Origin: a virus
Length of the DNA: 21,766 nucleotides
Virus record (IMG/VR): IMGVR_UViG_3300036945_000919
Coordinates: 1 to 21,766 of that record
Direction: 5' to 3' (one strand)
Part shown: piece after piece, positions 1,496 to 16,973 of the stretch
How positions within the stretch are numbered: the first letter of the stretch is position 1
How the letters are laid out: each line of letters begins with the position of its first letter
Notes under the pieces: generated by a model
Told to the model about the DNA's origin: nothing
What the model saw: only the letters and a program-made list of their open reading frames with translations
Database searches by the model: none
Program-made: the position numbers and the translations under genes

Positions 1496-2335
1496 CTAGC
1501 TTTCAGCAAGACCTAGGGTCTTTAGCTCATTGCTGTCTGGAGAAATCTCGTGTCTTCTCGTGAAAAATCCAGAGAACTCTCGCTCTCCTCTATGGAATCC
1601 GCCAGTTACCGCGTGGTACATTCTAAAGATGTCAGCAAGAATTACGTCGTTTTGCTTCCATTTTTGTACGATCCTAAGATCTGTATTGTTGTAGACGATG
1701 TTTTCAACTTCCGTCATTATCCTTAGGAACAACAAAGACTCGTCCACCGATGGCTCTCGTCCCTCGTATGTATGGAGATAAGTAGGGAATGGCCTGGATA
1801 CGTCGACATCTAGCCTAATTACTGGTTCTTTAGTGTAGAAGTGTCTCTCAACTGCAGGCGTAACAAATGGTCCGGTACCGTCAAACTGATCCCAGCAAAC
1901 TACTGACTTATCTAAAAACTCCTGCCAATCTTTTGACAGAGAGCTGTAGATGGATCTTCCATCCATAAAGTATGTCATGCCAGACCCATGAGTTGCAGAG
2001 AATGTGTGCATGTTCCATATGCCAGCCCAGATCGGGTTTACATACTCTACATGTTCCATGTGCCAAGGCAGGAAGACTTCGTCTGGTCGTCTATCCCAAG
2101 TGACTTCTTGCTCGTGACTACAGGTGTAGAAATCCACCTTAGTTTCATGGGAATTGTTCGGCCACCAACCTAGATCATTGCCCAATTCCCGTATGAGCCA
2201 GTCCTGATCAGCGTACTCAAACTTAAAGTCAGAGATGACTAAAATACCGTCAGATAGAAAAGAATCTAGAATCTCTTCTTTTATATTTAGTATGTCTTCT
2301 CTACTGGAGACACTGAAAGATTTAGGAACGAGCAT
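1496..2335 (-). CDS. TauD/TfdA-like Fe(II)/2-oxoglutarate dioxygenase
   Basis: This is a 279-aa putative non-heme iron oxygenase. It should couple 2-oxoglutarate decarboxylation to hydroxylation of an unknown substrate. The likely iron triad is H92-x-E94 (in PWHMEHVE) with distal H241 (in FRMYHAV), and an Arg follows at 249 or 252 (HRGEREF) for 2OG binding. ILADIFRMYH resembles the distal strand of TauD proteins. E in place of the more common D in HxD/E is accepted in the superfamily. The ATG follows the stop of the 31-aa microORF with no gap (TAAATG) and has no good SD of its own, so translation is probably coupled. Its partnership with the upstream carbamoyltransferase suggests successive steps on one molecule (inference). 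Confidence 0.75.
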   Translation of the reverse strand: MLVPKSFSVSSREDILNIKEEILDSFLSDGILVISDFKFEYADQDWLIRELGNDLGWWPNNSHETKVDFYTCSHEQEVTWDRRPDEVFLPWHMEHVEYVNPIWAGIWNMHTFSATHGSGMTYFMDGRSIYSSLSKDWQEFLDKSVVCWDQFDGTGPFVTPAVERHFYTKEPVIRLDVDVSRPFPTYLHTYEGREPSVDESLLFLRIMTEVENIVYNNTDLRIVQKWKQNDVILADIFRMYHAVTGGFHRGEREFSGFFTRRHEISPDSNELKTLGLAES

Positions 2336-2431
2336 TTAATAAATAAACTTGTCTTTTTCATTCTTCTTAGGCGGGAAAATAAACGACTTCACTTTCAAGT
2401 AAATTCGCTCTAAGTAGTACATAAAACTCAT
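2336..2431 (-). CDS. 31-aa microprotein between carbamoyltransferase and oxygenase
   Basis: This is a 31-codon ORF of unknown function. Three things support it as real. The ATG overlaps the carbamoyltransferase stop as ATGA. AAAAAAGGAG sits 7 nt upstream, one of the best ribosome-binding sites in the region. The TAA is followed directly by the next gene's ATG. The peptide starts MSFMYYLERIYLKVKSF, an aromatic and basic, possibly amphipathic helix. It continues with a Pro-Pro turn and a Lys-rich tail ending KFIY. No Cys and no clear transmembrane span are present. Small ORFs are known beside some bacterial NodU-type carbamoyltransferase genes, but homology cannot be judged by eye. Confidence 0.65.
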   Translation of the reverse strand: MSFMYYLERIYLKVKSFIFPPKKNEKDKFIY

Positions 2432-3864
2432 CTAATTACTCCTTTTTTGTAGAATCTCTCCCAGGCATCGACATCAGCTTCATCGTTAAGTATCGGCTGA
2501 CCCTTAATGTTTAAGCTGGTATTTAATAGTACAGGAACACCAGTGAGCTCATACCATCGCTTTAGAACTGCATAAAGCCCTGGGTGCTGCTTCTCGTTCA
2601 CAGTTTGCACTCTAGATGTGCCATCAGCGTGGACAACACTAGGAATTAGTTCTGGCTTAAGGCATTTAGGCGTGAACTGCATATACGGCGATGCATAGTT
2701 CATATCAAACCACTCGCTCGCATGCTCTTCCATAACTACAGGAGCAAAAGGTCTAAACAACTCTCGCTGCTTAATCTTGTTTACTTTTTCCTTAATATTA
2801 GGATCGCGAGGATCAGCAAGAATACTGCGGTTCCCCAATGCTCTTGGCCCATACTCGGCCCTTCCTGTCGCTACTGGAGCGATCTTATCTTCAATAAGGG
2901 CGTTTACAATCTTGTCTACAGGGTACTCACCCGAGATATTAGTTCCAAGATATGGTCCAGCCCAGTCAAGCTTTCTCTCGTAAAAAGCTGCTGCTGCACC
3001 TAGAGATGATCCAGCGTCTCCAGGATTTGGCATAATCCACACATCATCAAACAAATCCCAGAGTTCAGTGTTAGCTTTACTGTTTAACGCGCATCCGCCC
3101 ATGAAAACTAGATTGCTCTTACCGGTCTTCTTTTTCGCGTATCGCATGAAGTCCATAAGGCGAAGTTCATAGACCTTCTGCACTGCTGCAGCAATATCAA
3201 AGCGATCCTGCTCTGTTATCTCCTGGCCCCAGTTATCTATGCCTTTATGGAAGTTATAGGTTTGATAGTTAAAGATAGGAAAGTAGTGAAGAACTTTGTA
3301 GTAGTACTTAGTCCAGTCGCCATAGGCGGCCATCCCCATCATGATGTACTCTTCTTCATTTGGTTTAAGTCCAATCAAATGAGTGAAGCCAGAGTAGAAC
3401 AGTCCATAGCTGAACGGGTACTTCCAGCGCTTAACTTGCTTAAGGTCGTCGCCTTCACCAACCCAGATAGAGCTAGTGGTAAATTCACCTATAGCATCTA
3501 AGACAACAACTACAGCATCATCAAACGGCGATGTGTAGTAGCCAGCTGAAGCATGTGAGTGGTGGTGATAAGCAACATACGTAGGGATGCCTTTAAGTTC
3601 AGGCATGCTTTTGTAGAATGGTTTGCCGCCACCCAAACCACCGCGTGAAAGAATTCGCCACTTCTTTAGCCAGCGGTCTTCGTAGTAAGCGATTTTGTCT
3701 GGTCTACCGTAGGACAGCGCCTCAAGAATTAGTTCGCGATTGGTGTACCAGTCGTTCTTCTTTTTAGAGTAACGCTCAGCATGAGCAGCAAAGAGGACTT
3801 TACCGTCTTCTATGACGCAAACAGCAGCATCATGCGTAGTCTCATTTATACCAAGAATTCTCAT
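2428..3864 (-). CDS. O-carbamoyltransferase, NodU/CmcH/TobZ family
   Basis: The 478-aa enzyme should move a carbamoyl group from carbamoyl phosphate, via carbamoyl-adenylate, to a hydroxyl group. The N-terminal Kae1-like domain begins MRILGINETTHDAA with H11, followed by the HHHSHA cluster at 100-105 and GGCALN at 256-261. The C-terminal domain carries EYGPRALGNRSILADPR at 337-353, RPFAP at 371-375 and LLNTSLNIKGQPI at 446-458. All core motifs are intact. It is shorter than bacterial NodU (about 560 aa). The acceptor is unknown: a sugar, an antibiotic-like molecule or a nucleobase are all possible. TAGACT lies exactly 6 nt before the ATG and there is no close SD, so the message may be leaderless. 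Confidence 0.93.
   Translation of the reverse strand: MRILGINETTHDAAVCVIEDGKVLFAAHAERYSKKKNDWYTNRELILEALSYGRPDKIAYYEDRWLKKWRILSRGGLGGGKPFYKSMPELKGIPTYVAYHHHSHASAGYYTSPFDDAVVVVLDAIGEFTTSSIWVGEGDDLKQVKRWKYPFSYGLFYSGFTHLIGLKPNEEEYIMMGMAAYGDWTKYYYKVLHYFPIFNYQTYNFHKGIDNWGQEITEQDRFDIAAAVQKVYELRLMDFMRYAKKKTGKSNLVFMGGCALNSKANTELWDLFDDVWIMPNPGDAGSSLGAAAAFYERKLDWAGPYLGTNISGEYPVDKIVNALIEDKIAPVATGRAEYGPRALGNRSILADPRDPNIKEKVNKIKQRELFRPFAPVVMEEHASEWFDMNYASPYMQFTPKCLKPELIPSVVHADGTSRVQTVNEKQHPGLYAVLKRWYELTGVPVLLNTSLNIKGQPILNDEADVDAWERFYKKGVIR
2895..2907 (+). repeat. Dispersed motif, exact copy (carbamoyltransferase)
   Basis: TAAGGGCGTTTAC. On the coding strand it spells V-N-A-L. Confidence 0.7.
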
Positions 3865-3870
3865 GGTACA

Positions 3871-3876
3871 AGTCTA
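3871..3876 (-). promoter_or_regulatory. Candidate -10 (TAGACT), 6 nt before the carbamoyltransferase ATG
   Basis: TAGACT on the minus strand is followed by TGTACC and then ATG. It overlaps the TAG stop of the protease gene. A start site 7 nt downstream would be the A of the ATG. I see no matching -35 element, so the call rests on the recurrent spacing. Confidence 0.4.
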
Positions 3877-5457
3877 CATTCCTTGATACCCGACGATCCC
3901 GATGACTTTTTTAGAGCCGTCAGATAGAGTGACACTGACTTTAAGTAAGTATTGAACAGTAAGGCCAGCAACAAACTTAATACTTGTACCAGTAGTTGAT
4001 CGGAGCAACAACCAACTTTCACCGTTAGTATTCGAGATCTCTACATCGTATTTAGTTGCGCCAGTAACAGGAGTCCAAGTAATGTCACCGACACTAGACC
4101 CAGCTCCACCTCGTTGTGTAGCCACTACAGAACTATTAGTTGGAGGAGCTACTAGAACCGGGGGCGTTATCAGATTGGCAGCTGATGCACCAGAGTTACG
4201 GATACCGTCAGTAGCTGGTCCAAATCCTTTAGGGGTCTTAGCCAAAACTCTGTATATAGAAGAGTCAGTGGTGCTTCCTCTAGGTAGGGCATACATCAGG
4301 TTGCCAGTTTCAGCTATAGTCACCCACTTGTCAGATACATACTGCTGAACTACGTAAGTAACCCTTGCATAACTTGACGAGTAGGTAGGCCTAGTCCACG
4401 TTAGTTTGTTGTACTTGATCGTAAATTTACCTGGAGACGAAATGCTTTTATCAATAGCCATGGTGACAACAGGTGATTCAGGAAGCGGAGATACCGGAAT
4501 TACGATTGGCGTATCGGCAACAACCTTTGCCACGTTAAGAAGGTCACTCGCTCTAGACCTAGAGTCAGAAACTACAGACTTCTGGGAGAAAGAATTTATG
4601 GCATTTAGTGCACCAGAATAGTTAGATACATACCCGGCCGACACGTAGGTGGCCATTGCTCCAGAAACAAAAGCAGCTGCCTGGGAGGTGCCGCTTTTCT
4701 GTGACAACCGTCCGCCCATCGCACTGGAAGTTATCTTAGAGCCGGGTGCAAAGATATCAATACAATCTCCCCAGTTGGAGAATGGTGACCTAGCATCTTG
4801 TTCGTTTACAGATCCAACGCTAATAACCCCAGGGGTACTTGCAGGGGAGAATGTACAAGCATCCGACGTGGCGTTTCCAGCAGCTGCAATCACTATCATT
4901 CCAGCTTCTATCAGCCGAGAAGTAGCGGCGTTTACTGCATCGTCTTTTGGCCCACCAAGACTCATGTTGATAATGGCAGGCTTACCAGCCGGGTGGTTGC
5001 GCAAAATCCAACTAATTCCAGCGGTCAGTGTCGAGGTAGTTCCCTGACCAGAGCAGTTCAACACCCTAACCGGAACTATAGTTGCAGCCTTTGCCACACC
5101 GTAAATGGAGCCACCGACAATCCCGGCAATGTGAGTGCCATGTCCGTTACAGTCTGCTTGATCTAAGTTTTGATTGAAAGCATCAAAGCCGTCTAGTACT
5201 CGTCCGGAGAAATCAGAATGAGTAGCGTCTACTCCCGTGTCTACAATGTAGATGCGTACGCCAACGCCATCACTTAAGTATTCATAGGAACCATTGGCGG
5301 TTCCATCTATCCTGTCTAGACCCCAGGTTGGCCCAGCTTGGACCTCCATAGTGGTATATATGTTCTCGCTGTAGGCAGTAGTCACTGGACCGCCACTTAT
5401 GGCAGTTCCGACTAATAGAGCTGAAGCACCTACAATGCTGCATATTTTTCTAATCAT
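3874..5457 (-). CDS. Secreted subtilisin-like serine protease (S8) with FN3-like C-terminus
   Basis: The 527-aa protein is a predicted exported endopeptidase. Residues 1-29 form a Sec signal peptide: a basic MIRK, a hydrophobic core and small residues before Tyr29. The S8 domain (about 43-275) has D73 in IVDTG, H106 in GHGTH, oxyanion N195 in AAAGN and S258 in SGTSQA, all intact. Fewer than 25 residues lie between the signal and WGLDRIDG, so the usual ~80-100 aa I9 propeptide is missing. Residues about 325-420 and 430-525 look like two fibronectin-III-like beta domains. Secreted S8 proteases are uncommon phage cargo. A role in cleaving host surface proteins or processing virion proteins is inference. 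Confidence 0.9.
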   Translation of the reverse strand: MIRKICSIVGASALLVGTAISGGPVTTAYSENIYTTMEVQAGPTWGLDRIDGTANGSYEYLSDGVGVRIYIVDTGVDATHSDFSGRVLDGFDAFNQNLDQADCNGHGTHIAGIVGGSIYGVAKAATIVPVRVLNCSGQGTTSTLTAGISWILRNHPAGKPAIINMSLGGPKDDAVNAATSRLIEAGMIVIAAAGNATSDACTFSPASTPGVISVGSVNEQDARSPFSNWGDCIDIFAPGSKITSSAMGGRLSQKSGTSQAAAFVSGAMATYVSAGYVSNYSGALNAINSFSQKSVVSDSRSRASDLLNVAKVVADTPIVIPVSPLPESPVVTMAIDKSISSPGKFTIKYNKLTWTRPTYSSSYARVTYVVQQYVSDKWVTIAETGNLMYALPRGSTTDSSIYRVLAKTPKGFGPATDGIRNSGASAANLITPPVLVAPPTNSSVVATQRGGAGSSVGDITWTPVTGATKYDVEISNTNGESWLLLRSTTGTSIKFVAGLTVQYLLKVSVTLSDGSKKVIGIVGYQGM

Positions 5458-5495: not shown

Positions 5496-6449
5496 CTAGA
5501 TACAACCTAATTCTTCGAGCTTTTGGTGGAATCTCTCGGCAACATGTATGTTGGCGTGGTACCCCATATGGGACGTTCCGTAGATGTTACCATCTGCAGC
5601 ATAGTCGAAGAGATCTCCGGCTCCGTGCCTATGCTCTTCATGGCAGCCCTGTTCAAGGTCTACATGTGTAGCCTCACACATCGAGACATATGAGCCACTA
5701 TCAATAGGAATACTCCTGTAGAAATCATCAAAGATTATGTTCTCAAATAGGTAGCAGCTATCACCATGCCAAGAGCCCCAGACGAGTTCTATATCTACAT
5801 CTTTACAGTAGTCAACTAGTCTCTGAACAGCGTAAATTGCATCCGCAATAGGGAATTCATACGGCAGAATTTCTTTTAAATTATGAGGAGTTTTAGAGTA
5901 CTTAGGGACAACTCGGTCTAACTCTAGGGATGTTCTCATTATCCCGGCAGAAGCGTCAGTTATGTCTGGGCGGGTACCTTCTACCCAAGGTACTGCGACA
6001 TCTGTGTTGTACGGTATAGCAAGCCTATACGGGTCAGGCAGCATTACTGCTATGACCTTAGGCTTACCATACCGCCTAATGTAATTGAAGATATTTAATA
6101 CTATTGTCCCGATAGACCAGCCAGAAAATGAAAGATTTACATTTCTTTCAGTGCCAAGCTTGCTCGCCAGTAGGTTCCCCCACATATGCTCTTCAAGAAT
6201 CCCCTCGCCAAAAGTCTGAGAACACCCAGCAACTAATAAATCTGGGTTATCTAAAAATTCTCTAGAGCGGTACCCCATGGAATTCACCATATAGCTTTTA
6301 ACTAGTGGGTGGTCAAATGCCAAATTATCTTTACGGACGCCGGCACTATTGTCTTCTAAATCAAATCTGTTCCAAAAGTTACCCTTTAAATACTTACCCT
6401 TAAATAGATGCCATATATTAGGAAATTCTCGGGAGTATATTTCTTCCAT
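5496..6449 (-). CDS. SGNH/GDSL-like hydrolase family protein, paralogue 1
   Basis: This 317-aa protein is one of three paralogues in the window. Block I is VAGCSQTFGEG with candidate nucleophile S77, preceded by the shared NSMGYRSREF segment. The C-terminal block is SHMGYHANIHVAE (about 293-305), whose last His (about 302) could be the catalytic His. These features match SGNH hydrolases, which act on esters of lipids or carbohydrates. A canonical DxxH block V is not obvious, so catalysis is not certain. It shares YSKTPHN and a Cys-His-rich stretch before the C-terminal His block with its paralogues. No SD is visible before the ATG, 16 nt after paralogue 2. No signal peptide is seen, so it should act in the cytoplasm or the virion. 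Confidence 0.6.
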   Translation of the reverse strand: MEEIYSREFPNIWHLFKGKYLKGNFWNRFDLEDNSAGVRKDNLAFDHPLVKSYMVNSMGYRSREFLDNPDLLVAGCSQTFGEGILEEHMWGNLLASKLGTERNVNLSFSGWSIGTIVLNIFNYIRRYGKPKVIAVMLPDPYRLAIPYNTDVAVPWVEGTRPDITDASAGIMRTSLELDRVVPKYSKTPHNLKEILPYEFPIADAIYAVQRLVDYCKDVDIELVWGSWHGDSCYLFENIIFDDFYRSIPIDSGSYVSMCEATHVDLEQGCHEEHRHGAGDLFDYAADGNIYGTSHMGYHANIHVAERFHQKLEELGCI

Positions 6450-6465: not shown

Positions 6466-7383
6466 TTAATTTTTGCTCACCTGTTTCATAAAAGCCTCAG
6501 CAATGTGAATATTATTATGATACCCCAAGTGCTGGGAGTCCGCGGCTTTATCAAATAAGTCACCAGAGTTTGGCTTTTCTTCGAGGTGGCACGATCGCTT
6601 ATCAGTATCTACCTCAGTAAAAGTATCAACATAAGATGACAAATCGAAATGCAGGCCAATAGCAGGTAGAAACTCTAAAAACGTACGATGCGTGTCTGTA
6701 TCCCAAGTTCCCCAAGTCAGATCAATTCCGCTTGCGGTGCAGTATTGGATTAAGTGTTGTATGGCTGTTATGGATAGATATATAGGCAGCTCTATAGGGG
6801 TGATGTCATATTGATTGTGCGGCCGTTTAGAGTAATTAGGTACAGAATATCGATTACGTAGGTGCACGGTCTCCACTCCAGAGTGCGGGTGCATATCTGA
6901 TTTTTTAGTTCCAGGAACCCATGGAGTGGTTATCTCGGAATTATATGGAGACACGTATCTAAGCATGTCTGGGAACAGTACATATATCTTTTTAGGATGC
7001 CCATATAGAAGAAAGTAGTTCATCAAACCATTAACTGTGCCCTGAATAGATTGCCCCGGCTGAGACAAGTTTACGTACTTGGAAACACCCAATCTTTTCG
7101 ACATTATGTTCGACCACATGTACTCTTCAGGCACTCCAATTCCATAGGTCTGAGAGCAGCCAGAGTAGATAATTTTCGGGTTTTGTGTAAATTCAGGCGA
7201 CCTATACCCGTTGGAATTTAGGTGGTACTTGCTTATCCTAGGGTGCGAAAAGTCCAGGGGACTATTCTTCATGTAAGACTTATCTTCAAAAGATAGCCAC
7301 CTATCGAATGTGCCCTTTGAGTACTTACCTAAAAATACACTTTCAACGGTGTACTCATCGATAGGGAAATCTCTTTCCCCCAC
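6466..7383 (-). CDS. SGNH/GDSL-like hydrolase family protein, paralogue 2
   Basis: This is a 305-aa tandem relative of the gene downstream of it. It shows YSGCSQTYGIG with S77, the leading NSNGYRSPEF segment, VPNYSKRPHN in the middle and HLGYHNNIHIAEAF at the end. The two tandem copies have their candidate nucleophile at the same residue number and are clearly diverged duplicates rather than a recent copy. The start is GTG, sharing its first G with the dUTPase stop (TAGTG), so translation is probably coupled to dut. Confidence 0.6.
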   Translation of the reverse strand: MGERDFPIDEYTVESVFLGKYSKGTFDRWLSFEDKSYMKNSPLDFSHPRISKYHLNSNGYRSPEFTQNPKIIYSGCSQTYGIGVPEEYMWSNIMSKRLGVSKYVNLSQPGQSIQGTVNGLMNYFLLYGHPKKIYVLFPDMLRYVSPYNSEITTPWVPGTKKSDMHPHSGVETVHLRNRYSVPNYSKRPHNQYDITPIELPIYLSITAIQHLIQYCTASGIDLTWGTWDTDTHRTFLEFLPAIGLHFDLSSYVDTFTEVDTDKRSCHLEEKPNSGDLFDKAADSQHLGYHNNIHIAEAFMKQVSKN

Positions 7384-8618: not shown

Positions 8619-9291
8619 TTTGTTCCTCCAGGTTAAGGGCGTCTACGATATTCTTGATACTAGAAGGATACCAGCTGCCCCCTCTAGGGGTCTGGATGCC
8701 GCTTGAATTGAGGGCGTCTGCGATAGCCTGGAAAGAATACCCTAATTTTCTCTTTAAAGCAACTTGATTTCGAACCTCATCCTGGATCACCTGCTTAGGG
8801 CCTATGTCTCTACCCCAGACTACGCCACGCTGTCTACGGTCCTTGTGAATATCTTTAGCTCGTTCTGCAATGATGCCTCGCTCCATCTCCGCGAGCGCCG
8901 ACATAATCGTAACCACGAACCTACCTTGATATGTAGACGTGTCGAGATTCAAATCCAAAAGGATAAGTCGCCAGTTATTCTTGTTGGCCCTGTCCACAAT
9001 GTCCAAGAAGTCTTTAGTTGACCTAGCCAGTCTGTCAATCCTAGTGACAATAAGGGCGTCTGCTTCTTTGTTGTCTAACCGCTTAAGGGCGTTTATTAAT
9101 TTAGGTCTACCAGAAACATTCTTACCGGAGCGCCCCTCTTCTTTGACTAGCTCACTTTCAGTGAACCCGTACATCTCTCCGGCTTGCCTCAGGGTTCTCT
9201 CTTGAACATCTAACGACACGCCATCTTCAACCTGCATGGCTGTCGACACGCGGGCATATAGAAGTGCTTTACCAGTAGGGGCGTCTATCAT
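8596..9291 (-). CDS. Small serine recombinase (resolvase/invertase type)
   Basis: The 231-aa protein has an N-terminal resolvase domain: LLYARVST with nucleophile S16, EEGRSGKN, and ALIVTRIDRLARS with the Arg-rich active-site strand. The EMERGIIAERA E-helix follows, then a C-terminal segment GYSFQAIADALNSSG that looks like a helix-turn-helix. It lacks the ~300-residue C-terminal region of large serine integrases, so inversion or resolution is more likely than attP-attB integration. I see no paired attachment or crossover sites nearby. The ATG overlaps the upstream SGNH gene stop (ATGA). The gene body carries five copies of the dispersed 13-bp motif, including one at its start codon. Confidence 0.9.
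   Translation of the reverse strand: MIDAPTGKALLYARVSTAMQVEDGVSLDVQERTLRQAGEMYGFTESELVKEEGRSGKNVSGRPKLINALKRLDNKEADALIVTRIDRLARSTKDFLDIVDRANKNNWRLILLDLNLDTSTYQGRFVVTIMSALAEMERGIIAERAKDIHKDRRQRGVVWGRDIGPKQVIQDEVRNQVALKRKLGYSFQAIADALNSSGIQTPRGGSWYPSSIKNIVDALNLEEQNGDAEES
8634..8646 (+). repeat. Dispersed motif, exact copy (recombinase 3' end)
   Basis: TAAGGGCGTCTAC. It lies about 40 nt before the recombinase stop and upstream of the metallopeptidase SD. Confidence 0.7.
8709..8721 (+). repeat. Dispersed motif, two mismatches (recombinase)
   Basis: TGAGGGCGTCTGC. It codes A-D-A-L in the predicted helix-turn-helix. Confidence 0.5.
9051..9063 (+). repeat. Dispersed motif, one mismatch (recombinase)
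   Basis: TAAGGGCGTCTGC. It codes A-D-A-L just before the IVTRIDRLAR active-site strand. Confidence 0.6.
9084..9096 (+). repeat. Dispersed motif, exact copy (recombinase)
   Basis: TAAGGGCGTTTAT. It lies 33 nt (start to start) from the previous copy and codes I-N-A-L. Confidence 0.7.
9276..9288 (+). repeat. Dispersed motif, one mismatch (recombinase start)
   Basis: TAGGGGCGTCTAT. It covers codons 2-6 of the recombinase gene, next to the start codon. Confidence 0.6.
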
Positions 9292-10280
9292 TTTTTAGTT
9301 TTTATGAACGCTTCAAATTCTTCAGCCAAGTGAACGTGCTCGTGGAGGGTCATGTGGCTGGGATTACCGAATGCCTCGTTGAAGTTCTCTTCGTACTGAT
9401 CTTTAACATCTAAGTGACAGTCAGAGTGCTTATTAATAAAGTCTGGTTTTTCAGGGATGTCTCTATAGATAAAACCAGACATGTCTAATTCGTTATACCC
9501 CTCTAGCGATAGGCATCTATATAGATCTAGAACCGGCTGATTCCAGCTGCTCCAGATAAGTTCTATGCCGCTAGCCTTGCAGTACGAAACGAGAGTGGCC
9601 AAACCCTGAGCCGAGAAGTAGAAAGGTAGCTCGTACGGGGTTACCTCATACAAGTCATAAGGTTTCTTTATGAACTTGTATCTAGGCCCATATGCACCTT
9701 TAGGGTTGTTGTTCGCATAGTTAAGAGTAGTGACTACAATCTCATCGCTACTCTTCTTGTTGCCGTCTTTCCAGCCCAAGAAACTATTTACGTCTCTTCT
9801 TAGAGGCATAACTATTCGCCTAAAGTCAGGAATCAGAGCTACAACGTACTTAGGCTTTCCGTACAAGTTGACATGACGCATGACAGCATTAGTTATATCT
9901 TGTACTGACCAACCAGGGGCAGCGTAGCTCACATGGGAAAGTCCCAAGTTAGATGCCAAGACCTCGGTCCAGATCTTCTCTTGAGCAACACCCACACCAA
10001 AAGTCTGGGAACATCCGGCCATAACGAGGTCTACCTGCTCGCCAGGCTCAGGGGACCTGAATCCAAGAGAGTTTACAGCGTACTTATTCTTTGAATCACC
10101 GTAGATACTTTCATCATCAGGGGATATTTTGTGTTGCTTAGTTATGAGTTCAGTGAAATTGAAAACTGTATTATCTACAGAAGCCCCCTTAAAGACCTGC
10201 TGAGATAGATTGAGTCGCTGGGCTATACCGTTTTCACCAGTAAATAGGCCAGGGTTTGGGAGTTTTCTATTAGATCTCAT
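9288..10280 (-). CDS. SGNH/GDSL-like hydrolase family protein, paralogue 3
   Basis: This 330-aa protein is the most diverged of the three. It keeps NSLGFRSPEPG, VMAGCSQTFGVG with S91, KKPYDLYEVTPYELP in the middle and SHMTLHEHVHLAEEF near the end. The N-terminus has an extra ~15 residues compared with the tandem pair. It is the first gene of the leftward run. TATACT lies exactly 6 nt before the ATG and no SD is present, predicting a leaderless message. An enzymatic function is likely from the Ser and His blocks, but not proven. Confidence 0.6.
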   Translation of the reverse strand: MRSNRKLPNPGLFTGENGIAQRLNLSQQVFKGASVDNTVFNFTELITKQHKISPDDESIYGDSKNKYAVNSLGFRSPEPGEQVDLVMAGCSQTFGVGVAQEKIWTEVLASNLGLSHVSYAAPGWSVQDITNAVMRHVNLYGKPKYVVALIPDFRRIVMPLRRDVNSFLGWKDGNKKSSDEIVVTTLNYANNNPKGAYGPRYKFIKKPYDLYEVTPYELPFYFSAQGLATLVSYCKASGIELIWSSWNQPVLDLYRCLSLEGYNELDMSGFIYRDIPEKPDFINKHSDCHLDVKDQYEENFNEAFGNPSHMTLHEHVHLAEEFEAFIKTKK

Positions 10281-10324: not shown

Positions 10325-10999
10325 GTGGACAACCAAAGCTCGTATCACATAATCGAAGACTTCTTGACCAAAGAAGAATGCGCTCAATTCACTGAGATAG
10401 TTCTAGCTAACCCAGAGGGAAACCACGACAGGTACCCTCTATTTGACTGGATGCAGATGCCTAACTTCGCTATTCTGGCAGAAATGCCTAGACCATGGGA
10501 CCAAGAGGTTGTCTTCATAAAGAAGCTAAATGAGGCCATTAAGACTTCTTACAACTTCTTAGTTAACAACTACACGATGACCGGGACTAAATTCGGACTA
10601 AACCGTATACATGGAAACATCATGACTACAGGTGCAAGCTTCGATACTCACGTAGACGAGCAGCCAAACGAAGATGGCATCTATGACGGTCAGAAGAAGA
10701 CCTATGTAGGTGCGTTGTTTCTAAACGACGATTACGAAGGTGGCGAGTACTACTTTAAGGACCAAGATGCCGAGTTCAAGCCAAAGGCCGGTAGCATAGT
10801 TCTTTTTCCTGGGTACTGCACACCGCACGAGATACGAGAAATAACTGGTGGCACAAGGGTAAATGTCCTAATAGTTTTCTATGACTACCTAAAAGAGAAC
10901 TACGACGAGCTTCTTTCTTATTACGCGTCAGAGACCGGCGAGATGGTCTTCTCCACTGAAACCCAGAAAGAGATCAACCTCCACACTCGCCGCGGTTAG
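10325..10999 (+). CDS. Prolyl-4-hydroxylase-like Fe(II)/2OG oxygenase, paralogue 1
   Basis: The 224-aa protein has the double-stranded beta-helix iron triad H109-V-D111 and distal H168 (TPHEIREI), with R178 (GGTRVN) for 2-oxoglutarate. LNDDYEGGEYYF is the strand typical of P4H-type enzymes, and AGSIVLFPG precedes the distal His. It is about 20 residues longer at the C-terminus than its paralogues. The start is GTG with AAGG 6 nt upstream. The gene ends 4 nt inside the convergent paralogue 2. The substrate is unknown: protein side chains are usual in the family, but small molecules are possible. Confidence 0.85.
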   Translation: MDNQSSYHIIEDFLTKEECAQFTEIVLANPEGNHDRYPLFDWMQMPNFAILAEMPRPWDQEVVFIKKLNEAIKTSYNFLVNNYTMTGTKFGLNRIHGNIMTTGASFDTHVDEQPNEDGIYDGQKKTYVGALFLNDDYEGGEYYFKDQDAEFKPKAGSIVLFPGYCTPHEIREITGGTRVNVLIVFYDYLKENYDELLSYYASETGEMVFSTETQKEINLHTRRG

Positions 11000-11616
11000 C
11001 TAGTGCCTAATCCAGCGACAGTGTCGTAGGTGTGAGGGTCAAACTCTGAGATTATGACCTCATCGGCTGGGTCGTAGTCCTTGAAGAATAAGACATAATT
11101 TGTTCTTTTTCCAGAAATAACGGCGTTTACTCCGTGGTGGTTCTTTCCCTCAAACAAGATAAGACTTCTAGCTGGTGGCACTAGGCTCACGTTAAACTCT
11201 GGGAAAAAGAGCTCCCCGCCCTCATAATCGTCAGTCAGAAATAGCAACCCCGAGTAGTGCTTCTCGTTCTTCCTGCGACCCTGGTAAAGGTCATCATCAT
11301 CGCTGTGTTGCTGGAGGCTAGCGCCTTCGCCCATACTTCCCATGAATCCACGCTTGTACTCGAAAACGTTCTTCATTTCGTAGTTATCCAAGAAATAGTT
11401 CTTACCCTGCTCGATAACCCTTAGCAACGGGAGAACCTCTGGCTCTACGGAGCTCAGAGCAGCTAGCCCATTGGTGTACTGGTGCATGTTAGCAATAGGG
11501 CAAAACTCCCAGCCCGGGCGTGGGTCCGGCTGCTTATTGGCCTCGAAGAACTCTAATAAGCCAGCTAACTCGTCTTCCGAGATGGCGTCTTCAATCAAAT
11601 GGTACGGCTTAGTCAT
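10996..11616 (-). CDS. Prolyl-4-hydroxylase-like Fe(II)/2OG oxygenase, paralogue 2
   Basis: The 206-aa protein has the triad H104-S-D106, H161 (in NHHGV) and R171 (in SGKRTN). LTDDYEGGELFFPE and RSLILFEG are the family strands. The N-terminus PYHLIEDAISEDEL aligns with paralogues 1 and 3. It is convergent with paralogue 1 (4-nt overlap) and divergent from paralogue 3 across a 200-nt gap. TAGACT sits 6 nt before the ATG and no SD is visible. Confidence 0.85.
   Translation of the reverse strand: MTKPYHLIEDAISEDELAGLLEFFEANKQPDPRPGWEFCPIANMHQYTNGLAALSSVEPEVLPLLRVIEQGKNYFLDNYEMKNVFEYKRGFMGSMGEGASLQQHSDDDDLYQGRRKNEKHYSGLLFLTDDYEGGELFFPEFNVSLVPPARSLILFEGKNHHGVNAVISGKRTNYVLFFKDYDPADEVIISEFDPHTYDTVAGLGTS
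11118..11130 (+). repeat. Dispersed motif, one mismatch (hydroxylase 2)
   Basis: TAACGGCGTTTAC. It codes V-N-A-V just after the distal iron-ligand His. Confidence 0.45.
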
Positions 11617-11651
11617 AAGTTAAGTCTATATCAAGGAAGTGCTACATATTT

Positions 11652-11677
11652 ATACAAGCTTAGGTCTAAGTTTGTAT
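11652..11677. repeat. Inverted repeat, 12-nt arms
   Basis: The arms ATACAAGCTTAG and CTAAGTTTGTAT flank a central GT, with one mismatched pair. The two-base centre suits a protein-binding dyad in DNA better than an RNA hairpin. Confidence 0.6.
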
Positions 11678-11685
11678 GACATTTA

Positions 11686-11705
11686 TGTACACAAGCTTTT
11701 GTACA
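11686..11705. repeat. 20-nt near-palindrome
   Basis: TGTACA stands at each end around CAAGCTTT; only one symmetric pair is mismatched. It shares ACAAGCTT with the dyad 9 nt to its left. Confidence 0.6.
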
Positions 11706-11830
11706 TTAACCAACAAAATACTGGTATACAGTATGCTATATTTAGTACCTTAGTATGTACTCTATCAGTATAGTATATTTAACCATATATACTAGAGAGA
11801 TGGAGATACCTATAACGATAGTTGGAACCC

Positions 11831-12448
11831 GTGGCAAACAGTAACTTATATTATCTAGTTAAGAACGCACTTCCAGCAGCAGAGATAGATGCTCTACACA
11901 AGTACGTGCATGTAGGTACAGAGCCAGATAGAAGGCCAAACTACACCCATAAAGGGATTACAATCCAAGATTTCTATGAAGCCGCCTCACCCGAGATACT
12001 GTCGCTTCATCGCGTTATAGAGATTTGCCACAAGACATTCACTAAAAACTACACATTTAAGTACAACAGATTCGAGCTAAAGAGGCTGTTTGGCAACATT
12101 ATGAGCGTGGGGGCACTCAACGAGGCCCACGATGATGATGGTGATGTGTACCCGGGGAAGCCTGAAATTGAAGAGCACTACTCGGCGATATTGATGCTCA
12201 CCAGCGACTACTCCGGTGGAGAGCTCTACTTTGAACATCACGGCGTAGAGCTAAAGCTAGATGCCGGAGATTTGATAATGTTTAGAGGTAATGCAGCTAA
12301 CCTGCATGGAGTTAGAGAGGTCCTCTCGGGGGAGAGGGCTAACGTGATCATTTTCTTTAGGAACTACCCGACCGACGTTGACATAGACGACGATGAATGG
12401 CTGGAGCTGTCGGCCACTTGGGAGAGGTCAGACAGTGATTCCGTATAA
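11831..12448 (+). CDS. Prolyl-4-hydroxylase-like Fe(II)/2OG oxygenase, paralogue 3
   Basis: The 205-aa protein has the triad H100-D-D102, H159 (NLHGVREV) and R169 (SGERAN). LTSDYSGGELYF and AGDLIMFRG match its paralogues. I take the GTG at 11831 because ANSNLYYLVKN then aligns with the starts of paralogues 1 and 2. A TTG at 11822 would add three residues. Neither start has a good SD. The end overlaps the start of the GT61 gene by 14 nt, linking it to the sugar cassette. Confidence 0.83.
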   Translation: MANSNLYYLVKNALPAAEIDALHKYVHVGTEPDRRPNYTHKGITIQDFYEAASPEILSLHRVIEICHKTFTKNYTFKYNRFELKRLFGNIMSVGALNEAHDDDGDVYPGKPEIEEHYSAILMLTSDYSGGELYFEHHGVELKLDAGDLIMFRGNAANLHGVREVLSGERANVIIFFRNYPTDVDIDDDEWLELSATWERSDSDSV

Positions 12449-13463
12449 AGGCAGCTCATTACCCTCCAACTGGGACATATCGACAGCAACACCATTTTCA
12501 GGTACGTCGTATATCTGCCTGGAGCTAGTTAGTCACAATTTCTACTTCGAGTCGCTAGAAGAACTACAGTCAAAAACAATGCACAATTTTAGGTTGGAGT
12601 CTAGTGACTTACTCAAAGCAGCGAATACTAAGTACCTAATCAGACTTGATGACCCGTTTTTTCATGTAATTTATGACTCTTTGGCACTAGTACTGGCACT
12701 ACATCGATTAGACCCTTCCGGTATTTTCATCTTATATAGACCAAGGATAGAGTCGAAAAGTACCAAAAAGATATATGACTACTTTGAAGAACTCTTTAAG
12801 TCCAAAAACATATCTCATTTAATACTCTACCCGGCTAGGGACGAGCTTATCGATAAGATGGGATACTACTCTCCGGTTATAGAGACTCATAACTACATAG
12901 ACATAGTCGGGTACTTGAACGATAATGACATTAAGTTCACCCTTGATGACTATCTATTTGCGTCTAGAGAGGTTCTAGCTCACCTTGGACCTAGCGCTAC
13001 CGAACCCCACAGAAGAGTGTACTTGTCCCGATCCCACATAGATCACAGGCAGTACGAGACAAGAGATGACCACGTTGGATATAAGGACGACGTAAGACTG
13101 GAGAATGAAGAACTTTTAGAGGACTTTTTTAGGTCTAAGGGCTATGAAATAGTTGTCCCCGAGCACAAATTCAGCACTTTTAGGGAGCAGCTGGAGTACA
13201 TGAGGTCAGTAAAAGTTCTAGCTTCCGTGACTAGCTCAGGGATAACAAATGCTCTTTTTATGGAAGATGGTCAAACTGTCATCGAAATAGTGGCAGAGTT
13301 AGTCTTTCCAGGCGAAGATCTAACTACAGAGCAAACACTGTTCGGTAATTACATTCAAACATCTTACGAAAAGCTCCATACGCATGTGTGCATTCCATCT
13401 AGGCGTGACCCGAAACCAGTGATCAAAACGTTAGAGACCTTAGTAGCTACGCTTAACTTATGA
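12435..13463 (+). CDS. GT61-family glycosyltransferase (DUF563)
   Basis: This is a 342-aa putative glycosyltransferase. The C-terminal half has RRVYLSRS, ENEELLEDFFRSKGYEIV, STFREQLEYMRS and a region around TSSGITNALFMEDGQTVIEI. That order and wording is the GT61 signature. The usual HG-A/G-L motif is replaced by TSSGITNAL, a deviation worth noting. The start is GTG at 12435 with GAGAGG 7 nt upstream, inside the end of the hydroxylase gene. An ATG at 12393 lacks an SD and overlaps more. It leads a four-gene cassette. The donor and acceptor sugars are unknown. Confidence 0.75.
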   Translation: MIPYKGSSLPSNWDISTATPFSGTSYICLELVSHNFYFESLEELQSKTMHNFRLESSDLLKAANTKYLIRLDDPFFHVIYDSLALVLALHRLDPSGIFILYRPRIESKSTKKIYDYFEELFKSKNISHLILYPARDELIDKMGYYSPVIETHNYIDIVGYLNDNDIKFTLDDYLFASREVLAHLGPSATEPHRRVYLSRSHIDHRQYETRDDHVGYKDDVRLENEELLEDFFRSKGYEIVVPEHKFSTFREQLEYMRSVKVLASVTSSGITNALFMEDGQTVIEIVAELVFPGEDLTTEQTLFGNYIQTSYEKLHTHVCIPSRRDPKPVIKTLETLVATLNL

Positions 13464-14083
13464 GACCAGCAATCATTTTTGACTTAGATGGTGTACTTAT
13501 AGACAGTAAAGAGCTTCACTATGATGCCCTCAATCTTGCGCTAAAGAGCATTAACGAAAAGTACATGATATCTAGACAAGAACAAGCTTCCATCTACGAA
13601 GGTCTAACTACTAGATCAAAGTTAGACATTCTTACGCACACGAAAGCTCTTCCGAGAGATCTGCACGAACATATCTGGAGACTTAAGCAGCAATACTCGT
13701 CTGCAATGTTTGAGGATATGCCTTTAGATTCAGAGCTAGTAGGTATCTTTAAATATATTAGAAAGCAAGGAATTGCTTTAGGGATAGCCAGCAATAGCAT
13801 CAGAGAGACTCTAACTACCTGCTTACGCTCAATAGGCGTTTACGAATACGTTGATGTCTGCCTAAGCAACGAAGACGTAGATAACCCGAAACCTAGCCCC
13901 GAGATATACAATCTCTGCATGCTAATGCTGGGCTCGGCTCCAGAAAGCACTGTCATTTTTGAAGATAGTAATATAGGTAGAGAAGCCGCCAGACAGAGCG
14001 GTGCATTTTTGGTAGAAGTTGGCAGTAGGCAGGATCTAACCATGAGGTTTATCTCGAATAAGATAGCGAGCTATCTTGAATAA
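13460..14083 (+). CDS. HAD-superfamily phosphatase (beta-phosphoglucomutase-like)
   Basis: The 207-aa protein has motif I FDLDGVLIDS with nucleophile D8 and D10, motif II GIASNS, the motif III Lys in NPKPSP and motif IV in IFEDSNIG. The helical cap between about 17 and 85 is of the PGM/phosphoglycolate phosphatase type. It probably dephosphorylates or isomerises a sugar phosphate for the cassette. The ATG overlaps the GT61 stop by four bases (ATGA). No SD is visible, so coupling is likely. Confidence 0.87.
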   Translation: MRPAIIFDLDGVLIDSKELHYDALNLALKSINEKYMISRQEQASIYEGLTTRSKLDILTHTKALPRDLHEHIWRLKQQYSSAMFEDMPLDSELVGIFKYIRKQGIALGIASNSIRETLTTCLRSIGVYEYVDVCLSNEDVDNPKPSPEIYNLCMLMLGSAPESTVIFEDSNIGREAARQSGAFLVEVGSRQDLTMRFISNKIASYLE

Positions 14084-14792
14084 GCCAAATATCCTAATCC
14101 CAATGGCGGGTCTAGGAAGTAGATTTGCTGATAAAGGTTACGATCTACCAAAGCCGCTAATTAAATTTTTCGGTAAGCCGATGATTCAGCACGTGGTGGA
14201 GAGCTTGGCCATCGACGGTCAGTACATCTTCTTGGTACAGAAGGCTCATCGCGTTAAGTATCACTTAGACGACGTACTAGACGAGATTGCCCCGGGGTGC
14301 TCGGTTATAGAAGTAGACGGCCTGACAGAGGGTGCCGCAAGCACTAGTCTTCTAGCCAAAGACTTAATCAACAGCCAAACTCCGCTAGTCATCGCTAACT
14401 CTGACCAGATAGTTAATTGGGATTCATTACATTTTCTAAAGTCACTAACTGCCTTTGATGGCACTACCGCTGTCTTCGAGGCGACTGACCCTAAGTGGTC
14501 TTACGTAATCTCGGATGGCGGGGTGTCCGTGGAGGGTGTAGTTGAGAAGCAAGTTGTTAGCAACATAGCCAATGTTGGGATATATGGCTGGGCTAGTGGA
14601 GCCGAGTACGTGCGAGCAGCGGAGACTATGATTGCCAAGGATATCCGTACAAATGGGGAGTTCTATATTGCACCTGCGTACAACGAGGCCATCGCTAACG
14701 GTGCGCATGTAGTGACATTCCAAGTAGAAGATATGTATGGCGTTGGGACCCCCGAGGACTTAGATGCTTATATTAGGAGCACCGTTGATTAA
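14076..14792 (+). CDS. Sugar-phosphate nucleotidyltransferase
   Basis: The 238-aa protein should make an NDP-sugar or NDP-alcohol from NTP and a phosphate ester. PMAGLGSRF (9-17) is the GxGxR nucleotide-binding loop, followed by LPKPLIKFFGKPMI (24-37) with the conserved Lys. VIANSDQIVNWD holds the metal-binding Asp. The length is that of single-domain transferases with no hexapeptide-repeat tail. The start is TTG, overlapping the HAD stop in the 8-nt string TTGAATAA. Confidence 0.88.
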   Translation: MNKPNILIPMAGLGSRFADKGYDLPKPLIKFFGKPMIQHVVESLAIDGQYIFLVQKAHRVKYHLDDVLDEIAPGCSVIEVDGLTEGAASTSLLAKDLINSQTPLVIANSDQIVNWDSLHFLKSLTAFDGTTAVFEATDPKWSYVISDGGVSVEGVVEKQVVSNIANVGIYGWASGAEYVRAAETMIAKDIRTNGEFYIAPAYNEAIANGAHVVTFQVEDMYGVGTPEDLDAYIRSTVD

Positions 14793-15650: not shown

Positions 15651-16235
15651 ATGGGTCAAATTGAAATTATTAAAACTGTAAAGAACTTCTTAACCAAAGA
15701 AGAGATGCAGTTGTGGGTAGACTTTTGCGACTCTGCCGTTGAATCCAGGCAATCTGAGATGGCAATCTATGCCAACGGCCTGAGGTATATCTTTCAATTT
15801 GGAAAAGACAAGTGCGACACTCACTACGCATCAAACACTGATCTAAGTGCCATACCAGAGCTTGAGGCAGAGTCTAGGGATTTATTTTCTCGGGTCATCT
15901 CAATCAGCAAAAATCTATTTGATGACGAATCAAAGATGTATATGACAGGGTTTTGGGTCTCGAAGCAATTACCTGGATCTTATGTAGGGGAGCATGAAGA
16001 TACCGACGAGGGGTTGAATGATCACTTTAAATACAGTGCTGTTCTATATTTGAATACATTAGCGAGCACTGGTCAATTGATGTTTACAGATCTTGGCCTA
16101 AGTGTCACTCCCGAAGCAGGAGATTTAGTCGTGTTTAAATCTCTGCCATCCGGAAAGCATAAGGTTGACCCAATCAACGAAGACAGGTACACCCTAGCCT
16201 TCTGGATGACAGAAGATGAAAATTACTCTATCTAG
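15651..16235 (+). CDS. Prolyl-4-hydroxylase-like Fe(II)/2OG oxygenase, paralogue 4
   Basis: The 194-aa protein has the triad H115-E-D117, H170 (SGKHKVDPI) and R179 (EDRYTLAFW). LYLNTLASTGQLMF replaces the usual xGGE strand with TGQL, so this copy is more diverged. AGDLVVFKS precedes the distal His as in its paralogues. The gene is probably expressed from a leaderless message. It ends 8 nt inside the convergent 42-aa basic ORF. Confidence 0.82.
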   Translation: MGQIEIIKTVKNFLTKEEMQLWVDFCDSAVESRQSEMAIYANGLRYIFQFGKDKCDTHYASNTDLSAIPELEAESRDLFSRVISISKNLFDDESKMYMTGFWVSKQLPGSYVGEHEDTDEGLNDHFKYSAVLYLNTLASTGQLMFTDLGLSVTPEAGDLVVFKSLPSGKHKVDPINEDRYTLAFWMTEDENYSI

Positions 16236-16356
16236 CCGTAACTAAGCGACGCTTCTGAGCATCCCATACCTTTGGACGCTTCTTTGATGCCTTACCGTTC
16301 TTTCGATCAGTAGTTGTCTTCTGAGGAGCCTGTGCTCCACCCTTGCCTTTTGCCAT
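16228..16356 (-). CDS. 42-aa highly basic protein
   Basis: This short ORF begins MAKGKGGAQAPQKTTTDRKNG, continues with a KASKKRPK cluster and ends VWDAQKRRLVTAR. Nearly all its charge is positive, suggesting nucleic-acid binding (inference). TAGGAAATAAAATG supplies an SD (AGGA) within the end of the upstream hydroxylase gene, 8 nt from that gene's stop. Its own stop overlaps the convergent paralogue 4 gene. No family recognised. Confidence 0.65.
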   Translation of the reverse strand: MAKGKGGAQAPQKTTTDRKNGKASKKRPKVWDAQKRRLVTAR

Positions 16357-16364
16357 TTTATTTC

Positions 16365-16973
16365 CTATCTGCCGTAAAACGGAATATCTGATTTAACAAT
16401 TTTACTTAGTTTTCCAGTAAAGATCGCCAAACATTTTCTTTTTCCAGATAAAACTTCCAAGACCTCATGCGGATGGTCTACATCTGACTTGAAATATACT
16501 AGCGTACCAGCTGCTGGTTTTTCTAAGATATTTTGATTAGGGAAGCTAATCTCCCCGCCGGTGAAGTCCTCATCAGCTGAGGTTAGATATAAAACCCCAG
16601 ACCAATCATTTACTTCTTCAATGTCAGCATCAAAAGGAGATCCATCTACTTCACAGCTGTCACAGTGGAGTTGATGTTTTCCACCTTCAAGTATTACTTG
16701 ATAGAAAGCATTAACAAGACGTATATCGTCAACTTCATAAGTTTTACCTATTGCGTCTAGAACTTTTTTAATGGTAGATGTCACCAATAAATTCTCAGTG
16801 TCATGGCCGACATTATCCGAGTAACCGATTTTACTTGCCTCTAGCGGAGTTGGCCAACCTAAGGCAGAGAGCTGGTTGTGTCTAGGGGTAGGGGTAGCCC
16901 TTACCTCTAGTAACTCATTGATGAGGGCGCACTCTTCTTTAGAGATAAAATTGGGTATTACGTAAACTGACAT
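16365..16973 (-). CDS. Prolyl-4-hydroxylase-like Fe(II)/2OG oxygenase, paralogue 5
   Basis: The 202-aa protein has the triad H103-C-D105, H169 (DHPHEVLEV) and R179 (SGKRKC). LTSADEDFTGGEISF and AGTLVYFKS are the family strands. SGKRK after the distal His is close to the SGKRTN and SGERAN of paralogues 2 and 3. TATAAT lies 6 nt before the ATG with no SD, overlapping the upstream gene's stop codon. Confidence 0.85.
   Translation of the reverse strand: MSVYVIPNFISKEECALINELLEVRATPTPRHNQLSALGWPTPLEASKIGYSDNVGHDTENLLVTSTIKKVLDAIGKTYEVDDIRLVNAFYQVILEGGKHQLHCDSCEVDGSPFDADIEEVNDWSGVLYLTSADEDFTGGEISFPNQNILEKPAAGTLVYFKSDVDHPHEVLEVLSGKRKCLAIFTGKLSKIVKSDIPFYGR

Follow-up and report, generated by a model that had tools for sequence, protein, structure and literature searches.

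The systems described so far that lie closest to the locus analysed here come from both bacteria and phages. SxtI has been proposed to carbamoylate together with SxtJ and the 54-aa protein SxtK, the product of a 165-bp gene, and the GDSL protein SxtL was assigned decarbamoylation (PMC2679770). The crocagin pathway starts from the 21-aa precursor CgnA, whose leader is basic and whose C-terminus reads Ile-Tyr-Trp, and it uses a 2OG-dependent enzyme (CgnC), CgnD, and the carbamoyltransferase CgnI (PMC10070186). In a further RiPP pathway, a lysine of the precursor is carbamoylated by a NodU-like carbamoyltransferase (CT; PMC13174530). A phage carbamoyltransferase acting on 5-hydroxymethylcytosine (5hmC) is known from MetaGPA (PMC8670742), and Nol-like carbamoyltransferases are found as auxiliary genes in cyanophages and pelagiphages.

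The window, that is, the whole stretch of 21,766 nucleotides that was analysed, is a fragment of a virus record (IMGVR_UViG_3300036945_000919) from a virus of bacteria. The features that are needed below are the following:

1496..2335, minus strand: TauD/TfdA-type 2OG-Fe(II) oxygenase, 279 aa, facultative here (PF02668, 4e-19, 70 bits vs a cut-off of 27)
2336..2431, minus strand: microprotein of 31 aa, MSFMYYLERIYLKVKSFIFPPKKNEKDKFIY, with an N-terminal basic helix (predicted) and a C-terminal Phe-Ile-Tyr
2439..2445, minus strand: Shine-Dalgarno (SD) site AAAGGAG of the microprotein, in the final CT codons, 7 nt before the ATG
2428..3864, minus strand: CT of the NodU/CmcH/TobZ type, 478 aa (PF16861, 3e-53, 180 bits; PF02543, 1e-39, 137 bits; both over the cut-off)
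3874..5457, minus strand: subtilisin-type (S8) protease, directly upstream of the CT (PF00082, 9e-38)
5496..6449, minus strand: SGNH/GDSL-fold hydrolase-like protein 1 (AF2, Foldseek, VIA-align)
6466..7383, minus strand: SGNH-like protein 2, of the family of protein 1 (E 8e-70 to protein 1; in alignment A4 via the L002 copy)
9288..10280, minus strand: SGNH-like protein 3, of the family of protein 1 (E 2e-39 to protein 1; in alignment A4)

The window CT is a NodU/CmcH/TobZ carbamoyltransferase, with an activity that is predicted from its sequence. It matches PHROG 1601 (Nol-like carbamoyltransferase) at 5e-103, and its relatives in the PDB are NovN, GdmN, and TobZ. H100, H101, and H104 (H-H-x-x-H) as well as G339-S347 (GPRALGNRS) are invariant across 15 diverse phage CTs, and GPRALGNRS, which is shared with NovN and GdmN in the alignment, is an active-site motif of the small-molecule carbamoyltransferase type. 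A scan of IMG/VR with the CT returned at least 153 relatives, of which 80 were kept. The CTs of isolate phages stand among genes for glycosyltransferase, UDP-glucose dehydrogenase, NadE, and methyltransferase. The Nol-like enzymes of cyanophages and pelagiphages belong to the same family (PHROG 1601), however, they have less than 45% identity to the window CT and are located in sugar-gene clusters, and no microprotein was detected in the loci checked, save a weak YIY-containing ORF in one of them (L119). Bacterial relatives of the CT were limited to two loci. One of these, from Streptomyces samsunensis (L084), is the closest bacterial CT found, with 47% identity; no microprotein was seen there, and inspection by eye suggests that an aminotransferase and a radical-SAM protein of the B12 type are its neighbours, which may point to a natural-product cluster. 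In the actinophage-type contigs L010, L011, L012/L013, and L034, the CT is followed immediately or at a short distance by ThyX (PF02511), and a phage contig (L173:10400-12439) features a large ORF after the CT with a start that is catalase-peroxidase-like by eye.

The MetaGPA enzyme is a member of the same phage NodU/TobZ family, so a phage NodU-type enzyme of another lineage has been proven to modify DNA, and the window CT could likewise modify the DNA of its phage. The proven enzyme, however, reads GPRALCNTTTL and the window CT GPRALGNRSIL, which places Cys and Thr where the window CT keeps the Gly and Arg of GPRALGNRS; by motif position these would correspond to G421 and R423 of TobZ. A hydroxymethylase partner was not found either: no gene of the thymidylate-synthase/dCMP-hydroxymethylase family is present in 18 related records (many of the 18 are fragments, and three have 152-154 kb), a C5-methyltransferase occurs in one of the 18 and is broken by two stops, and the window's species uses ThyX. 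The proposal, to which only a very slight chance is given, was set aside because partner genes and diagnostic residues are missing, and DNA-base carbamoylation by the window CT appears unlikely from the sequences compared.

The initial annotation described the CT, the micro-ORF, and the oxygenase as three genes joined by ATGA and TAAATG junctions, and this layout was confirmed on the minus strand: the CT/micro-ORF junction is an ATGA overlap and the micro-ORF/oxygenase junction is TAAATG. Its observation that the micro-ORF has the strongest SD and the oxygenase none also holds (AAAGGAG, 7 nt spacing); the micro-ORF is the only one with a clear SD, and the CT and oxygenase starts are without a comparable site.

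The micro-ORF is a real gene, beyond chance. With a profile built from the micro-ORF, homologues were found in many CT relatives, where they directly adjoin the 3′ end of the CT with the same overlap. A strict pattern (ORF of 18-94 aa, strongly basic, C-terminal [FYW]IY) detected at least one copy in 61 of 82 CT loci. In the 46 non-redundant CT loci, 33 strict copies adjoin the CT or an SGNH-like gene, in 32 of the loci, and the background in the same 563 kb is two copies elsewhere on the strand and none on the opposite strand. Thirteen of the 33 are located just before the CT, 12 just after it, seven before an SGNH-like gene, and one after such a gene. With a widened pattern (basic small ORF ending in an aromatic residue, Ile/Val/Leu/Thr, and Tyr), a microprotein is found by the CT or SGNH-like gene in 35 of the 46 loci, with five copies elsewhere and one on the opposite strand; the loci were sampled through the CT, so that microproteins without a CT could be missed in these counts. 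No microprotein was detectable near the CT in the other 11 of the 46. The genetic tie between microprotein and CT that was noted initially is thus borne out by a family that adjoins CT or SGNH-like genes in most loci.

The tails observed are FIY, YIY, FVY, YLY, LLY, WIY, and YTY. The terminal Tyr is built into the widened pattern, and its invariance therefore rests on the profile matches and on a tail-blind inspection of the remaining loci, which revealed basic ORFs with YLY, LLY, FVY (twice), and YTY ends in the same positions. The phage microproteins are 25-38 aa long, with a highly variable helix part and a near-constant tail. The AF2 model of the window microprotein, which has a low pTM, consists of a helix at residues 3-18 followed by the tail. 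Synonymous and nonsynonymous codon changes in the most similar pairs of micro-ORFs number 5:2, 5:2, 12:7, and 12:6. The family has no match in Pfam, PHROG, NCBIfam, or PADLOC, and a literature search found no phage microprotein of this kind. A defence role was rejected, given that PADLOC returned no match.

The oxygenase is a TauD/TfdA-type 2OG-Fe(II) enzyme by sequence, in which the iron and 2OG residues are intact: H92 and E94 (H92-x-E94), H241, and R252 are invariant in six phage TauDs. The initial annotation took CT, micro-ORF, and oxygenase to be one coupled cassette, in which translation of the micro-ORF would set the output of the oxygenase and the oxygenase would make the hydroxyl for the CT. 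The tight junctions and the SD pattern fit such a co-evolved unit, however, the distribution of the genes does not. The closest relative (L008), with a CT that is 88% identical, keeps the CT, the micro-ORF, the following gene, and the intergenic sequence and is without TauD; the exact trio, with TauD in this position, is found in the window's phage species only. An SD like GAAAGGA or AAAGGA is retained before the micro-ORF in L006, L008, L014, L022, and L067, which include TauD-less loci, and in other loci the micro-ORF stop overlaps or abuts the starts of unrelated genes at the same kind of junction. These two results argue that the SD is not there to tune TauD, and the proposed translational control of the oxygenase was not upheld. 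A profile of TauD found 80 phage loci. Three further clusters combine TauD with the microprotein and SGNH-like genes, in the orders TauD-SGNH-micro-CT (L173), micro-SGNH-TauD with the CT 3.5 kb off (L181), and TauD-micro-SGNH (L198), and the TauD tree has at least three origins of TauD beside the microprotein/SGNH/CT module. The recruitment of TauD to the module is therefore recurrent, although the module is out of reach in 42 of the 46 non-redundant TauD loci; by a crude chance estimate, at most about one such case would be expected in 46, so that non-random recruitment is suggestive, not significant. Overall, TauD is an optional add-on to the module, and a co-evolved trio is improbable. What stands of the initial interpretation is the tie between microprotein and CT, and what is not supported is the conserved trio and its regulation. 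Hydroxylation followed by O-carbamoylation is a possibility, in line with the TauD genes of the three further clusters and with the P4H-type oxygenases that are common near CTs, although their enrichment beside the CT is weak.

The window TauD had no match in the phage collection, and a single-sequence search of 246 actinobacterial genomes, which is too weak to inform, returned no relatives. In the tree it groups with the TauDs of a collagen-associated phage cluster (support 97/95). The TauDs of that cluster, however, stand among tandem P4H-type oxygenases, with collagen-like genes no closer than 1.6 kb and the CT no closer than 20 kb. Related phages (L131, L132, L134, L135) have at least six tandem 2OG-Fe(II) oxygenase genes, including TauD, by collagen-like virion proteins (PF01391) that are long and have GXY runs of up to 65 triplets, and these tandem oxygenases are likely phage-collagen hydroxylases. 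In the window, another five oxygenase genes of the P4H-type/2OG kind are packed into 7 kb (10325-12448 and 15651-16973), an unusual density for a phage. P4H-type oxygenases make up 13% of the genes around CTs and are weakly enriched directly beside them (11/45 vs 69/582, p = 0.03, an indicative value since the sequence groups are not wholly independent). The window also features a GT61 glycosyltransferase, a HAD phosphatase, and a sugar nucleotidyltransferase in consecutive genes (12393-14792), a small phage glycan pathway.

The SGNH-like proteins of the window belong to a family with no usable Pfam match, of which two of 43 members touch Lipase_GDSL weakly, and the structure of protein 1 was predicted because of this weak signal. 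The AF2 model (pLDDT 81, pTM 0.85) matches SGNH esterases, TesA, and CgnD with Foldseek and VIA-align, and this modelling confirmed the SGNH fold of the family. G75 and S77 are invariant in the 43 members and D286 and H294 are present in at least 90% of them, so the block I Ser together with the C-terminal Asp and His would form the SGNH catalytic triad. Of 90 immediate CT neighbours, 36 are SGNH-like genes, and the figure for other genes is 22 of 491 (p = 3e-18, again indicative, with many of the loci and records being fragments). Additionally, a microprotein is present in 29 of the 33 loci with an SGNH-like gene vs 6 of the 13 without one. The conserved unit consists of the CT, an SGNH-like protein, and the microprotein, rather than of the CT, microprotein, and oxygenase. 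The S8 protease, which has C-terminal repeats, lies 10 bp upstream of the CT and adjoins the CT also in L001, L002, and L008. Its N-terminus is signal-peptide-like by eye and the protein is apparently secreted; a role as processing enzyme was set aside for this reason, and the protease is probably a mere neighbour that is unrelated to the module.

A similar arrangement is found in bacterial operons of a CT, DUF5989 (PF19451), an SxtJ-like protein, and a GDSL/SGNH protein, in which a NodU-type CT likewise lies by a tiny conserved protein and an SGNH/GDSL protein. In one bacterial locus (L085) the gene order is SGNH, CT, an SxtJ-like protein (below the cut-off), and DUF5989. The CT adjoins the DUF5989 gene in 28 of 31 Bacteroidota DUF5989 loci, and a search of the phylum found DUF5989 in about 40% of the sampled genomes, nearly always by a carbamoyltransferase. 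In the Bacteroidota DUF5989 proteins, PFIY or PFVY is followed by the last three residues (e.g. PFIYTLF), so that an F-[I/V]-Y close to the C-terminus or at it is common to DUF5989 and the phage microprotein, and the phage gene shares with those of DUF5989 and SxtK that it adjoins a NodU-type CT. The two proteins differ in that DUF5989 has about 50 aa, a transmembrane segment, and a FIYTLF end, whereas the phage microprotein has 25-38 aa, is soluble, and ends exactly at Tyr. No transmembrane segment is present in the phage microproteins (maximal 19-residue Kyte-Doolittle mean of at most 1.45 vs 3.0 in DUF5989). Homology to DUF5989 was not supported, with an hhalign profile-profile probability of 0.8%, PF19451 has no match in 14 phage records, and SxtJ was not found in the phage, unlike in the bacterial operons. 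A candidate DUF5989 fusion in G105 is only an upstream open frame and no true fusion.

The gene order of L085, the adjacency of DUF5989 and CT, the likeness in F-[I/V]-Y, and the SxtI/SxtJ/SxtK proposal lead us to favour, with a confidence that stays a little short of an even chance, a three-part phage tailoring module in which the microprotein is a dedicated tail-docking partner of the CT and SGNH-like protein and TauD is optional; we infer the docking, the substrate, and the order of reactions. The microprotein would dock on the CT/SGNH pair via its C-terminal tripeptide, and its basic amphipathic helix would hold the enzymes or the substrate together. It would correspond in function to the DUF5989 of bacterial CT operons, but as a soluble rather than a membrane-anchored protein. 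The CT would move the carbamoyl group from carbamoyl phosphate via carbamoyl-adenylate to the hydroxyl or amine of an acceptor, which may be a glycan, a small molecule, or a peptide. The SGNH-like protein would edit the product of the CT by transfer, deacylation, or decarbamoylation, and TauD may be a tailoring enzyme that is recruited next to the module. Several results speak against a partner: DUF5989 homology is unsupported and a transmembrane segment absent, some loci (L035, L061) have two microproteins with one CT, and in 11 of 46 loci no microprotein was detectable nearby. A variable helix with a constant tail is also expected of a peptide substrate that is modified.

The rival given most weight casts the microprotein as such a substrate, a ribosomal precursor composed of a basic leader and, at the C-terminus, a [Phe/Tyr]-Ile-Tyr core, from which the phage would make a small modified peptide. 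The SGNH-like protein would cut the leader as CgnD does, carbamoylation by the CT would fall on the core or on a lysine, and aromatics would be hydroxylated by the 2OG oxygenases. The crocagin pathway offers parallels (PMC10070186): the phage likewise has a short basic peptide with an aromatic/aliphatic tail, an SGNH-like protein, a CT, and a 2OG oxygenase. Among the structural matches to the SGNH model, CgnD has the widest coverage and the top Z (14.8, residues 24-312), although TesA-type esterases are tied with it within one Z unit. A near-constant extreme C-terminus with a variable basic N-terminus fits a precursor, as do the NodU-like CT that acts on a precursor lysine (PMC13174530) and the loci with two microproteins. 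The tail tripeptide, however, is almost constant and hardly diversifies, the phage module can do without the 2OG enzymes, no homologue of the peptide-binding proteins CgnB and CgnE was noticed among the phage genes in general searches, and the bacterial counterpart DUF5989 resembles a membrane protein rather than a precursor. The crocagin core is Ile-Tyr-Trp and the phage tail Phe/Tyr-Ile-Tyr; a crocagin-type x-Tyr-Trp core is absent among the phage microprotein tails observed. A precursor role for the microprotein is possible but doubtful. The broader proposal, that phages widely encode a RiPP-like cassette in which the CT carbamoylates the core, the CgnD-like SGNH protein releases it, and TauD or P4H hydroxylates it in some phages, yielding a small modified peptide in the course of infection, is rather unlikely. 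A docking partner, the reading preferred here, and a modified substrate predict opposite microprotein masses.

Aquatic phages commonly carry carbamoyltransferase genes, and the acceptor has been established in one case, which is DNA-modifying. A conserved microprotein with a near-fixed tail, which most loci of a large CT subfamily contain, provides a handle on what these CTs bind or modify and links the phage modules to bacterial CT operons with the 50-aa partner DUF5989. Should the microprotein turn out to be the substrate, carbamoylated ribosomal peptides would have a new source in phages.
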